From Bacteroidota bacterium (GTDB taxonomy: Bacteria > Bacteroidota > Bacteroidia > NS11-12g > UBA9320), in NCBI GenBank assembly GCA_016124755.1, contig WGNA01000004.1, forward strand, positions 100,826 through 164,825: a stretch of DNA of 64,000 nucleotides. Reading direction: 5' to 3'. Position 1 is the stretch's first letter, and each line of letters opens with the position of its first letter. Made by a program: the position numbers and the translations under genes. Below the pieces are notes generated by a model that had not been told where the DNA came from, did no database searches, and saw only the letters and a list, made by a program, of their open reading frames with translations. Below are positions 28,146 through 41,733 of the stretch, piece after piece.

Positions 28146-28625
28146 TCAGAGCAAAGTTGTGGTGTTCGCAGGATTTTCGTAACCGGTATCAATTTTTAGA
28201 TTCGAAGAAGCGGCCGCGGCTGTTGCTAATTGGTCGCATCGCTCGTTTTCCGGAATCCCTGCATGGCCTTTCACCCATTGAAGTTTAACCTTGTGTTTCG
28301 GATAAATACTTAGAAACCGTCGCCACAAATCCGGATTGGCTTTTTTATCGAAATTCTTTTTTTGCCATCCGAAAACCCAGCCTTTTTCAACAGCATCCAC
28401 TACATATTTTGAATCGGAGTGAATTATAATTTCGGTTTGCGGAATTAGTAATGCTTCGAGTGCAACTATTACGGCCATAAGTTCCATCCGGTTGTTGGTT
28501 GTTAGACGAAAACCTTCACTGATTTCCTTTCTCCGATCTCCGGATTTCAGCACAACGCCGTATCCACCCGGACCGGGATTTCCGGTGGAAGCGCCATCGG
28601 TGTACGCAATAACGGTTTTAGCCAT
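28146..28625 (-). CDS. rnhA: Ribonuclease HI
   Basis: 159 residues. All four active-site acids of the RNase H fold can be assigned: Asp in YTDGASTGNPGPGGYG, Glu in NRMELMAVIVALEAL, Asp in IHSDSKYVVDAV, and Asp in ENERCDQLA following KGHAGIPE. It cuts RNA in RNA-DNA hybrids, for example in R-loops and Okazaki primers. A perfect TAGATTTG box lies 5 nt upstream of the ATG, with TTG 15 bp before it. Confidence 0.95.
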   Translation of the reverse strand: MAKTVIAYTDGASTGNPGPGGYGVVLKSGDRRKEISEGFRLTTNNRMELMAVIVALEALLIPQTEIIIHSDSKYVVDAVEKGWVFGWQKKNFDKKANPDLWRRFLSIYPKHKVKLQWVKGHAGIPENERCDQLATAAAASSNLKIDTGYENPANTTTLL

Positions 28626-28656: not shown

Positions 28657-29301
28657 TTAAGGCTTACTTATCAGCAGATTGTGTGTAAAAGCAAAATGGG
28701 TAACATCGGATGGTGAGTGGAGTTGCAATTTAAAGTTGATGTTTTTCCGGTGAGTTTGAACGGTTAACGGACTAATGAACAATTCGTCTGCGATTTGTTT
28801 TGTGGTTAATCCTAACGCAACCAGCCGAATGATATCCGTTTCTCTTTCCGACAAAACCACTTCCGAATCATCTACGGTAAAACTTCTTTTATAACCGGCT
28901 TTTATAATAGATGTCACATATTCATCGAAGTATTTTTCACCCCGGGCAGCGGTTCGGATTGCTTCGAGTAAAATGCTTTTACCACAACTTTTTAAAACGT
29001 ATCCCGAAACGCCAAGATCGACCATACTGTGGATGTACCGGAGATTATTGAGCATGGTGAGAACGATTATAGAAATTCCGGGTTTAGAAGATCTTAGAAA
29101 TTTTGCGGTTTCGAGACCGTCCATGAGCGGCATGTTGATATCGAGAAGCAAAACATCACATGGTTTCATTTCTAAAACCGTTAGTACTTCCCGCCCATTC
29201 GCTGCGGTGCCAATAATATTTATGTCTTCCTGATGCTGAAGAATACTGATGTATCCATCCAGCATTATTTCGTGATCATCAGCCAGCAAAATGTTTATCA
29301 T
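28657..29301 (-). CDS. NarL/LuxR-type response regulator
   Basis: 214 residues. Receiver domain (1-120) with phosphoacceptor Asp54 in DVLLLDINMPLMDG; LuxR-type helix-turn-helix at about 145-205 (LSERETDIIRLVALGLTTKQIADELFISPLTVQTHRKNI). It is 6 bp downstream of the histidine kinase gene and is its obvious partner. NarL-type regulators often bind 7-2-7 inverted repeats, and two such sites lie upstream of this operon at 32113-32161. Confidence 0.92.
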   Translation of the reverse strand: MINILLADDHEIMLDGYISILQHQEDINIIGTAANGREVLTVLEMKPCDVLLLDINMPLMDGLETAKFLRSSKPGISIIVLTMLNNLRYIHSMVDLGVSGYVLKSCGKSILLEAIRTAARGEKYFDEYVTSIIKAGYKRSFTVDDSEVVLSERETDIIRLVALGLTTKQIADELFISPLTVQTHRKNINFKLQLHSPSDVTHFAFTHNLLISKP

Positions 29302-29307
29302 CGTTTA

Positions 29308-31140
29308 TCAGATAAGTGGAACGCTAACCGTAACCTGAGTGCCTTTTCCCGGTACAGAATGGATGTCGAGGATTCCGTTCAGTTTCGAGGTTCTCTGTTT
29401 CAGATTCTGGAAACCCAGACCTTCCGAAACCGATTCCCGGTTAAAGCCTTTTCCGTCATCTTCAAAAGTAATGTTGAATTCATCTTCTAATTGATTGAGT
29501 CCGATTTCGATGGTTTGAGCGGATGCATGTTTGAGCACATTGCTGATTAATTCCTGAATGATCCGGTAAATTTCAATTTCCAATTCAGCCGGCAACCGCT
29601 CATTCATTCCCGAATGAAAGACCTTAATTTTAATGGATCCGGACTGTTCCAGATCGGCTTTTAGATCGAGCACGGCCGAAAGCAAACCGAATTTCATTAA
29701 GGTACCGGAGACCATGTTGTGGGCGATTTTACGTACTTCATCCGTGGCTTCGTCTAACAGGGCTTTCGCTCGTTCGTACTGACTTTTATTTTCCTGTTTA
29801 ATGATGTCGATTTGCTCTTCCACGGTATTGAAATGAAGTTTCACCGCGCCCAGAATACTTCCCAACCGGTCGTGTAAATCCGCTGCAATTCGCTTCCGTT
29901 CCTGTTCCTGACCTTCGAGCATGGCGTCGATTCTTTTCATTTCCTGCGATTGCAAAAGATTGTCGATTTTCTGATTGGAAAGTTCGCTTTGCTGTTCGGC
30001 AATTCTTCGTTTCTGACGACTGTTCCGGATCAGAAAAAAGGATGTGAGAGCAATTACGAATGCACAGATTATCGTGAGAGTGAGGTTGCGTTTGGCGACA
30101 TAGGTTAAGCGCATTGCCTGATTTGCTTCCTTTTCTTTTTGTAACGAATGAAATTGCTCGGCACTCAACTGAAAACCTTTTCTCTTTTCAGAATTAAATA
30201 ACGAATCATTTAATTCTGTGAGAAGGTAATAATATTTTGAGGCTGAATCAACTTCCTTTAATTCCAGAAAATAATCGAGATAATATGTATACTGATCACG
30301 AAGCAGAAATGGAAAGTTTTTGCTTTTTAATAAATTCATCCCAACATCGTAATAAGTTTTCGCCGAATCATCTTCATAAATTTTAAAGAACATGAGTCCT
30401 TTTATCTGATTTGCTCCGATTCTGATTTCATCACAACTTGCACAAAGATTTGAAGCAGTGGAATCAAGCCAAAATTTCGCTGAGTCATATAATTCAAGAT
30501 TAATGTACGCACCGGCAATGTTTCTGGCAGCTCTGGAGACTTCATTTGAATCTGAAATAATTTTTCCCCTTAGGTAGCCCAGTTTAAAATATTTTATTGC
30601 TTCGGGCAGGTTGTTCAGATATCCCAGCAAATGACCGATGTTGATGTCGTTTTTCGCCAGATCTTCCGTTGCGTTATTTTTTAAATAAATTGCTCTTGCA
30701 GCCCGATAATAATCCATTGCCCGGTTATTATAATAACCAAAACTGTCGGAATTAAAACTTGCAAAATCGACGTAAACGGAGGCAACTCCGGAATAGGAAT
30801 TTGCCAATTTAACCGGATCATTAATAAGACTGCGAATTTGTATCGCAGTGTCGTAATACAATATAGATTGTTGCAAATCACCTTTTAGCTTAGCGGCAGC
30901 TCCCAACGTCATATACGCATCTCCAATACCTTGTAGATACGACAATTTTCTGGATTCAACAAGGGCAAAGTTGGCTTTTCGAATGGCAATGCCGACATCC
31001 TTTTCCAAGGCGACTCTTCCTTCTTCATTCAATTTATCGATTTTGGTTGTTTGAGGAAAAGAAAGAGTGCTGCAGAAAAGAAAAATTAGGGTTGTTATAA
31101 ACCTAATTAATAAAAGGTTATTTTTTCTTTGGTTTAGCAT
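29308..31140 (-). CDS. TPR-containing sensor histidine kinase (HisKA_3 type)
   Basis: 610 residues: signal peptide, an extracytoplasmic TPR-like helical region (about 40-330), one membrane helix (about 345-365), a coiled coil, then a HisKA_3 dimerisation domain with phospho-acceptor His423 in AADLHDRLGSILGAVK, and a HATPase domain with NVLKHASAQ (N box), EDDGKGF (G1) and GLGFQNLKQR (G2). It should phosphorylate the regulator encoded next to it. The 5' end overlaps the lipoprotein gene by 23 bp, so sensor and lipoprotein are probably made together. Confidence 0.9.
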   Translation of the reverse strand: MLNQRKNNLLLIRFITTLIFLFCSTLSFPQTTKIDKLNEEGRVALEKDVGIAIRKANFALVESRKLSYLQGIGDAYMTLGAAAKLKGDLQQSILYYDTAIQIRSLINDPVKLANSYSGVASVYVDFASFNSDSFGYYNNRAMDYYRAARAIYLKNNATEDLAKNDINIGHLLGYLNNLPEAIKYFKLGYLRGKIISDSNEVSRAARNIAGAYINLELYDSAKFWLDSTASNLCASCDEIRIGANQIKGLMFFKIYEDDSAKTYYDVGMNLLKSKNFPFLLRDQYTYYLDYFLELKEVDSASKYYYLLTELNDSLFNSEKRKGFQLSAEQFHSLQKEKEANQAMRLTYVAKRNLTLTIICAFVIALTSFFLIRNSRQKRRIAEQQSELSNQKIDNLLQSQEMKRIDAMLEGQEQERKRIAADLHDRLGSILGAVKLHFNTVEEQIDIIKQENKSQYERAKALLDEATDEVRKIAHNMVSGTLMKFGLLSAVLDLKADLEQSGSIKIKVFHSGMNERLPAELEIEIYRIIQELISNVLKHASAQTIEIGLNQLEDEFNITFEDDGKGFNRESVSEGLGFQNLKQRTSKLNGILDIHSVPGKGTQVTVSVPLI

Positions 31141-31993: not shown

Positions 31994-32112
31994 TGCTCAG
32001 TTTTGAAATTTTGACTAAATGAAGTAAATAAACCGGTATGATAACTACCGATAATCAGGTATTTTTTTTGAACCTTCAAAGGCAAATAAAGAGATACAAA
32101 ACTCTTTTACAG

Positions 32113-32161
32113 TACCCGGAAGTGGGTATTTAGCTTCGATCAAATTACCCGATTCTGGGTA
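32113..32161. promoter_or_regulatory. Two 7-2-7 inverted repeats, probable NarL-type operator
   Basis: TACCCGGAAGTGGGTA (32113-32128) and TACCCGATTCTGGGTA (32146-32161) share the form TACCC-N6-GGGTA. They start 33 bp apart, about three helix turns, in the gap between the lipoprotein-kinase-regulator operon and a divergent small gene. The 16-bp size with half-sites TACCCRN equals the 7-2-7 layout bound by NarL-type regulators (NarL half-site TACYYMT). Confidence 0.55.
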
Positions 32162-32283
32162 TGGATGCCAATTCTTCATTAAACTCCTTTGTTCCGTTCG
32201 AAGAGCTCACTTCATTATCAAAGCGGCGGAACCGAAAAGCCATTTAAGAGTAGGAATTGAATTCTAATTATTTATTAAAAAAG

Positions 32284-32508
32284 ATGGATTTAAATCTTGA
32301 AAAACTTTCGAATTTGGAGGATGTTTCCTTGGATCAGGATGCATTGATTCATGGCGAAAGGGCTAAAAACATTTTTTGCGCAAGTTGGCCGACTGCAAAG
32401 AAAGTTTTGGAAGCCTTAGCCACGATTATCAAAAATCCGGGACTAAAGATTATTATCAAAGCAGTTATCGCATTGGGTGAAGGTTTTGCATCCAAATACT
32501 GCGGTTGA
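32284..32508 (+). CDS. Small peptide of unknown function, two Cys
   Basis: 74 residues from the ATG at 32284; a TTG nine codons upstream would give 83. The N-terminal third is acidic and Leu-rich (MDLNLEKLSNLEDVSLDQD), the rest is basic and hydrophobic (KNIFCASWPTAKKV, LKIIIKAVIALGEG), ending in SKYCG. Two Cys could form a disulphide or be modified. No classical signal peptide. The split into acidic leader-like and amphipathic core-like parts recalls bacteriocin or RiPP precursors, but no maturation enzyme is seen nearby. It is divergent from a two-component operon with shared operator-like sites. Confidence 0.5.
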   Translation: MDLNLEKLSNLEDVSLDQDALIHGERAKNIFCASWPTAKKVLEALATIIKNPGLKIIIKAVIALGEGFASKYCG

Positions 32509-41070: not shown

Positions 41071-41121
41071 ATTAAAATTTTCCAAGGCAAGTTTTCGTGT
41101 TGCTAATTTGCATTGGGCAAA

Positions 41122-41733
41122 ATGATTCAGATTTCGATTGTTGAAGACAACCGCGAGTTGGCGGAATGTCTGAGGGTGATTGTGGAAGCGGTTCCGGATT
41201 TTACGTGCAGAGTTTTTCGGAACGCAGAAACTGCCATAAGGGAAATAGATGCGGTGAATACCGATGTGGTATTAATGGATATTCAATTGCCGGGCATTAG
41301 TGGAATTGAAGCGACTTCTGTACTCAAAAACAAATTCGCAAACCTACAGATTGTGATGCTCACCATTTCGACTCAAACGAATGATGTGTTTGAATCCTTT
41401 AAAGCCGGTGCTTCCGGTTATTTGTTGAAGCACTCACCTCCTCATGAAATACAAGACGCGATAAAGGAAGTGCTGGACGGCGGCTCTCCCATGAATTCGT
41501 CGATCGCCAGAATGGTTATCAGTTCATTCCGTAGTCCGAAAATTAAAGTCGATTTGCAGGAATTAACTACACGGGAAGGCGAGACGCTTGAATTGCTTTC
41601 GAAAGGATATACCTATAAAGAAATTGCAGATATCCTTTTTGTAAGTGTGAATACCATCCGCACCTACATCCGAAATATTTACGATAAGCTTCAGGTGAAT
41701 TCGAAGCTGGAGGCGATTAATAAGATGAGGTAG
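41122..41733 (+). CDS. Orphan NarL/LuxR-type response regulator
   Basis: 203 residues from the ATG at 41122; a TTG three codons earlier is less likely. Receiver domain with Asp53 in VVLMDIQLPGISG and a Lys in YLLKHSPP, then a LuxR helix-turn-helix (LTTREGETLELLSKGYTYKEIADILFVSVNTIRTYIRNIY). No histidine kinase is adjacent, so its partner lies elsewhere. The composite hexamer repeat starts about 9 bp after its stop. Confidence 0.9.
   Translation: MIQISIVEDNRELAECLRVIVEAVPDFTCRVFRNAETAIREIDAVNTDVVLMDIQLPGISGIEATSVLKNKFANLQIVMLTISTQTNDVFESFKAGASGYLLKHSPPHEIQDAIKEVLDGGSPMNSSIARMVISSFRSPKIKVDLQELTTREGETLELLSKGYTYKEIADILFVSVNTIRTYIRNIYDKLQVNSKLEAINKMR

Follow-up and report, generated by a model that had tools for sequence, protein, structure and literature searches.

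Two 16-bp inverted repeats, palindromes A and B, lie between a lipoprotein-kinase-regulator operon and a divergent 74-aa open reading frame (ORF) in the window, as we call the whole 64-kb stretch of DNA that was analysed. With a probability of roughly 80%, as we judge from the sequence, they are 7-2-7 operators of the NarL-type response regulator encoded in the operon, which would thereby activate both its own operon and the small gene. An earlier note on this DNA had proposed that the sites are NarL-type operators for the regulator encoded next to them, and that the system is self-regulated with the small peptide gene among its targets. The former proposal is supported by the geometry of the sites, by half-sites identical to those of an engineered NarL site and by a motif that tracks the regulator across genomes, and the latter by the position of each palindrome, 34.5 bp from a candidate -7 box whose TTTG faces its gene. 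NarL-type regulators of this kind are abundant in these genomes, and no described DNA target of a Bacteroidota NarL-type regulator was found in the open-access literature that was searched.

The operon, the palindromes and the small gene

The order of the operon is lipoprotein, kinase, regulator, with overlapping lipoprotein and kinase genes and a gap of 6 bp between the kinase and regulator genes (Table 1). Hydrophobic segments of the kinase are found around residues 8-28 and 352-373, and its H-box, LHDR, is at 422. In the regulator we found a receiver domain (PF00072, E 4e-25) and a C-terminal GerE/LuxR helix-turn-helix (PF00196, E 1.2e-17), so that its earlier designation as NarL-type stands; it matches NarL (1a04) with E 8.8e-30. 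The lipoprotein gave no convincing family match and has no relatives at E 0.001 in 57 other related genomes. An RNase H-like gene (identified by eye; 28146-28625, minus strand) follows the regulator gene after about 31 bp in the same orientation, so that the two are possibly cotranscribed. The window also encodes a second LuxR-type regulator (41107-41730, plus strand), which has a different recognition helix, TIRTYIRNIYDKL.

Table 1. Positions of genes, palindromes and candidate promoter elements in the window
Feature	Position	Strand	Remarks
Lipoprotein gene, 291 aa	31118-31993	-	first gene of operon; lipobox read by eye
Sensor histidine kinase gene	29308-31140	-	TPR, HisKA_3 and HATPase_c
NarL/FixJ-type response regulator gene	28657-29301	-	REC and GerE; recognition helix TVQTHRKNINFKL
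Palindrome A, TACCCGGAAGTGGGTA	32113-32128	.	predicted promoter-proximal site (about -42.5) of the operon
Palindrome B, TACCCGATTCTGGGTA	32146-32161	.	predicted promoter-proximal site (about -42.5) of the 74-aa gene
Degenerate third copy, TACCGATAATCAGGTA	32046-32061	.	2 mismatches; in predicted lipoprotein leader
Candidate -7 box of operon, TTTATTTG	32083-32090	-	TTTG starts 34.5 bp from centre of A
Candidate -7 box of 74-aa gene, CTCCTTTG	32184-32191	+	TTTG starts 34.5 bp from centre of B
DUF805b RNA (RF02914) match	32223-32256	+	leader of 74-aa gene, 27 nt before ATG
74-aa ORF	32284-32508	+	ATG at 32284; predicted target gene

Palindrome A is TACCCGG-AA-GTGGGTA and palindrome B is TACCCGA-TT-CTGGGTA, both starting with TACC. 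They differ at four of 16 positions, all of them central. From centre to centre the distance is 33 bp or about 3.1 helix turns. The earlier note had placed two 7-2-7 16-mers at 32113-32161 and described them as differing mainly in the middle, three helix turns apart and located between the operon and a divergent small gene, all of which agrees with the sequence and the ORF layout. TACCC-N6-GGGTA occurs in the 64-kb window only as A and B, with 0.02 sites expected and two sites in none of 100 shuffles. The search of the whole 4.05-Mb genome that the earlier note had suggested gave three exact sites, as compared to two for the reversed pattern as control, the third being situated within a coding ORF of 335 aa (L001). 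The outcome that the earlier note had named as refuting, a motif that is frequent and unrelated to the regulator's genes, did not occur, two of the three exact sites being at this locus. Over the whole genome single exact sites are no more frequent than expected by chance, and their clustering here is the non-random part. The degenerate copy TACCGATAATCAGGTA, absent from the earlier note like the -7 box candidates on both sides and the DUF805b match, ranks third in 13 kb with a score of 14.0, behind 20.6 and 18.5 and followed by 7.4, in a scan with a matrix from which this locus was left out.

The 74-aa protein is acidic in its first 24 residues (net charge -5) and cationic in residues 25-74 (net charge +5), and the latter part is strongly amphipathic. 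Single-sequence prediction resulted in a two-helix hairpin (helices 18-48 and 52-72) with a pLDDT of about 94 over residues 31-70 and a mean of 79.7. No convincing family match and, at E 0.001, no relatives in 57 other related genomes were found; a fold search gave no PDB match at E <1 and returned helical hairpins only, which are uninformative. The combination of an acidic leader with a cationic helical core suggests a putative exported antimicrobial or signal peptide. The DUF805b match in the leader of the gene is borderline, as it barely passes the gathering score (35.8 versus 35.6 bits) and contains two columns marked as non-standard pairs, and a second, weaker match is present in the same genome (G000:C2:20486). 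DUF805b is common in related genomes (29 of 58 have a match at E 0.001, and 9 exceed the cut-off). In most of the inspected loci that carry it on the strand read, judged by eye and without a count, it lies some tens of nucleotides ahead of an ATG. This arrangement speaks for the 74-aa ORF being a genuine gene. The leaders of three related operons (L175, L140 and L195 in genomes G020, G004 and G510) contain no DUF805b.

Promoter spacing and the predicted circuit

Passages of PMC9723704 place the -7 box of flavobacterial promoters, TAnnTTTG, at -12 to -5, and the same box is given in a section of PMC7366714. Compared with this consensus, the candidate box of the operon departs from it at one position and that of the 74-aa gene, which keeps the TTTG half only, at two. 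The published box position puts the predicted transcription starts at about 32078 (minus strand) and 32196 (plus strand), from which the predicted -42.5 positions follow: A would be centred at about -42.5 and B at about -75.5 of the operon promoter, and B at about -42.5 and A at about -75.5 of the small-gene promoter. At these predicted positions the two palindromes lie on nearly one face of the helix at each promoter. The lipoprotein promoter of G020, the genome with the nearest regulator orthologue, has the same predicted layout, its two sites being placed at -42.5 and -73.5; in that genome a further site is at -42.5 of the divergent 155-aa gene. The two sites of the earlier note are present in the sequence, and on these predicted positions each is best read as the promoter-proximal site of its own divergent promoter, not as one half of a paired operator.

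The distance between site and box recurs in related loci, which is the new element here. Among 15 sites with at most one mismatch, 11 have a TTTG starting 34.5, 35.5 or 36.5 bp from the centre, whereas moving the sites at random in 2000 trials gave a mean of 0.87 and a maximum of 5. Of the four sites lacking this spacing, one is the second site of G020 (2623) and three are terminator-like palindromes just 3' of regulator genes. We regard 11 of 15 as the fair figure; an earlier offset histogram with 14 of 15 was based on a partly selected set, which drops L199, L201 and L206 and adds L195, L208 and L209. The promoter pattern as a whole, TACC-N8-GGTA-N26-28-TTTG, is not over-represented genome-wide in the genome of the window (G000; 3 matches versus 2 for the control, two of the matches being at this locus), in G020 (5 versus 6) or in G216 (6 versus 9), and among six genomes a clear excess over the control was observed only in G146 (15 versus 3). 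A wider regulon was considered and set aside, and we claim no further target.

In the circuit that we propose, a signal would be sensed by the TPR kinase, perhaps via the lipoprotein, leading to phosphorylation of the regulator. A regulator dimer would then bind A (-42.5) and B (-75.5) at the operon promoter and, with the roles of the sites exchanged, B and A at the small-gene promoter. Bound regulator would stand in for the -33 element and activate both promoters, the -7 boxes of which are poor, resulting in positive autoregulation and in induction of a small amphipathic-helical peptide. The DUF805b leader may add control of the small gene at the RNA level, and the weak third site in the operon leader possibly has a feedback role, which may be negative feedback at high regulator levels. 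The locus would offer a precise circuit with two divergent promoters, two operators and two predicted starts. If the reading is right, an 18-bp palindrome with a constant spacing to TTTG could serve to predict the targets of such regulators, with no need for transcriptomics.

Conservation of the motif with the regulator

The nearest orthologue of the regulator (61% identity) is encoded in G020, another genus of the same family, on a contig that ends within the kinase gene. A blind pattern search of this genome yielded three exact sites, two of them on one small contig (L175). In order, this contig contains a divergent 155-aa gene followed by site 1588, a stretch of about 1 kb of N, then sites 2623 and 2654, a lipoprotein gene at 2765 and the start of a TPR kinase gene. 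Sites 2654 (before the lipoprotein and kinase genes) and 1588 (before the divergent gene) are exact and site 2623 has one mismatch, with 31 bp between 2623 and 2654 versus 33 bp in the window. The N-terminus of the kinase on this contig shares 29% identity with that of the window over 126 residues (E 1e-12), and judged by gene order the two G020 contigs, which are not joined, are probably neighbours. BLAST found no relationship between the divergent gene of the window and that of G020, so that the predicted control of the small gene derives solely from sequence geometry. Regulators in G216 (46%) and G004 (43%) have one-mismatch sites before their operons, and in G004 a further one-mismatch site is located just 3' of the regulator gene, ahead of the next gene.

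Dyads were enumerated in 29.8 kb of intergenic DNA from the 23 nearest-regulator loci, the window included and 18 loci newly fetched. TACCC-N6-GGGTA with at most one mismatch was present in 10 of the 23 loci (15 matches, 7 of them exact in 5 loci) and, when the window is subtracted, in 9 of 22 (13 matches, 5 exact). The other 19 half-site permutations at the same spacing occurred in at most 3 loci with no exact match, and with any other spacer length between 0 and 12 the TACCC dyad gave at most 2 matches, again none of them exact. ATACC-N8-GGTAT, which describes the same site shifted outwards by one base, had the most exact matches of the listed dyads (9 in 6 loci). Near more distant regulators TACCC-N6-GGGTA was found in none of 11 loci.

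We also scored the region before each operon, as drawn by the analyst from ORF tables, with a leave-one-locus-out matrix and 500 shuffles. This set omits L139 (same system as L175), the four loci L194, L196, L202 and L204 (in each of which the contig starts inside the operon) and L163, and the terminator-like sites in L199, L201 and L206, counted among the 15, were kept out of the matrix. A high-scoring site was obtained in 9 of 17 non-window upstream regions, its score being reached by no shuffle in seven (L175, L161, L140, L197, L198, L208 and L209) and by one shuffle in two (L195 and L200). The other eight contain no high-scoring TACC-type site, one of them carrying the variant ATCCCC (L207, where two shuffles reach the score) and seven giving no upstream signal (L199, L201, L203, L205, L206, L210 and L211). 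Among 10 more distant regulators, the variant ATCCCT was seen in two (L141 and L147) and no signal in eight.

For a held-out test the matrix and the threshold (an upstream site scoring at least 15, reached by no shuffle) were fixed and applied to an order-level sample of 390 genomes with 34 regulator matches, 32 of them new. Such a site preceded 5 of 7 regulators with at least 42% identity (L269, L274, L276, L283 and L286; the misses were L270 and L271) and 0 of 25 regulators below 42%, so that the motif follows the regulator and not the genome; in these counts loci from one genus are not independent. In four of the five positives TTTG is 35.5 bp from the centre. Palindromes scoring 22.1 and 18.9 at L289 1174 and L299 7817 (regulator orientation) are not situated before the regulator operon and are possible sites of another regulator.

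In many related operons a short gene precedes the kinase gene, and a TACC-type palindrome is present that has a TTTG at 34.5-36.5 bp; most have one site, and the paired layout is not widely conserved. A scan of 84,980 genomes for paired sites resulted in 76 stretches, many of which fall within coding regions or arrays of repeats (Prevotella, Tannerellaceae, Streptomyces). An ORF with a LuxR-type helix-turn-helix is carried by 12 of the 76, a number that has no control and is not counted as evidence, and among 39 Bacteroidota-like pairs TTTG is at the expected place in only 4 loci. In Balneola (L044, L056, L058 and L101) paired TACCC-N6-GGGTA sites lie between large divergent genes, with regulator ORFs within the fetched stretches of L044 and L058.

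A bolder idea, to which we would give rather less than even odds, is that Bacteroidota TPR-kinase/NarL regulators share an operator grammar. In this genome it would couple the sensor operon to a divergent gene for a peptide with a leader and a cationic helix, forming a switch that amplifies itself and drives a secreted peptide of bacteriocin-like or signalling function. The operator would be an 18-bp 6-6-6 palindrome, in most classes 34.5-36.5 bp before TTTG, in which arm bases 3-4 vary with the recognition helix: VQ/VE-THRKN would pair with ATACCY-N6-RGGTAT, VESHRKN with ATCCCT-N6-AGGGAT and VNSHRRN with TCACT-N6-AGTGA. Since the loci are few and related and the helix classes were read after seeing the data, we offer this code as a hypothesis. 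The helices of the G020 and G004 regulators share TVQTHRKNIN with the window helix TVQTHRKNINFKL. VESHRKN regulators (L141 and L147) have the upstream palindrome ATCCCTGATTTCAGGGAT with the same length and in the same place, and VNSHRRN regulators have TCACT-N6-AGTGA at L142 4173, L143 6738, L144 3284 (one mismatch) and L164 8146. TTTG at 34.5 is also found in L143 and L164; at ATCCC-class sites TTTG is more distant by about 22-26 bp, and the -7 spacing is absent at L210 5777, L207 8134 and L145-type loci.

TCACT-N6-AGTGA precedes paralogous kinase-regulator operons in four of the four genomes examined (L142, L143, L144 and L164), the first gene of which has an N-terminus that is caspase-like by eye. 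ATCCC[CT]-type variants, ATCCCTGATTTCAGGGAT and the like, were also noted near related regulators at L141 7644, L147 7945, L207 4031 and 8134 (each with at least one mismatched arm position) and L210 5777 and 8104, as well as at L270 6653 and L271 6644 (regulator orientation).

Alternative explanations and known systems

The linked regulator might bind A and B and repress, blocking polymerase near the promoters of a negatively autoregulated switch. Passages of PMC4549865 describe repression of frdA by NarL from sites near the start, and the degenerate third site would fall downstream of the operon start. The strong sites, however, are predicted to be centred near -42.5, to one side of the -7 box and clear of it, with a spacing that is fixed in 11 of 15 sites, and together with the weak -7 boxes of the window this is the activator geometry of NarL at napF and yeaR, which makes repression improbable in our view. 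About half as probable as repression, in our view, is that A and B are genuine operators but serve a transcription factor whose gene is located elsewhere, and that they are next to the NarL-type regulator by coincidence. The genome does encode further NarL-type regulators, one of them in the window at 41107-41730, but the motif recurs by regulator orthologues in different families, falls away below 42% identity and is replaced by other upstream palindromes where regulators have other recognition helices.

Hardly any weight falls on chance or on a non-regulatory repeat, be it a hairpin, a terminator or a dispersed palindrome. Such an origin would fit the chance frequency of single exact sites, the many paired matches elsewhere in coding sequence or repeat arrays, the plus strand that folds well over both sites (z -2.8) and the 3 of 15 sites just 3' of regulator genes that are terminator-like (L199, L201 and L206), but it is opposed by the conserved position and -7 spacing and by predicted starts from which neither divergent promoter would transcribe the strong sites. 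Tandem Repeats Finder detected no array at 28-36 kb, and a tandem-repeat origin was rejected. An RNA element was likewise rejected, as the predicted starts leave A and B untranscribed and the region over them has no RNA family match. Activation by the linked regulator is the reading that we retain.

The best relative of the regulator with a solved structure is VraR (5hev, E 4.4e-34), and the best NCBIfam matches are MctR for the regulator and MctS and LiaS for the kinase, all equivalog cut-offs being missed by far. LiaFSR and VraTSR operons include an accessory membrane protein. Unlike LiaS/LiaR, VraS/VraR and MctS/MctR, the system described here has a lipoprotein and a TPR input domain; this comparison covered the proteins. 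TPR-kinase/NarL-regulator operons of related Bacteroidota genomes have the same kinase-regulator operon with a first gene that is not detectably homologous (hhalign probability 12), and mostly occur without a divergent small peptide; homology of the lipoprotein or the peptide to the first or divergent genes of these systems was dismissed, as neither BLASTP nor hhalign was significant.

The regulator misses the NarL equivalog cut-off (129.3 versus 250 bits) and the kinase is below those of NarQ (67.4 versus 553) and NarX (49.2 versus 578), scores so low that the window regulator is not NarL itself, and nothing in the analysis points to nitrate sensing. Further differences from E. coli NarL are the phylum, the sigma factor, the -7 box and a TPR kinase in the place of NarX/NarQ. 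Common to both are the 16-bp 7-2-7 inverted repeat and the TACCC half-sites, which in passages of PMC4549865 make up the engineered NarL palindrome (narG -89/-89), TACCCCTAAAGGGGTA, a TACCC-N6-GGGTA. The same passages give E. coli NarL 7-2-7 sites at napF (-40/-49) and yeaR (-38/-47), whose centres at -44.5 and -42.5 compare with the predicted centre of about -42.5 here. Should our reading hold, E. coli NarL would share its specificity and its promoter geometry with regulators of a phylum that uses another primary sigma factor.
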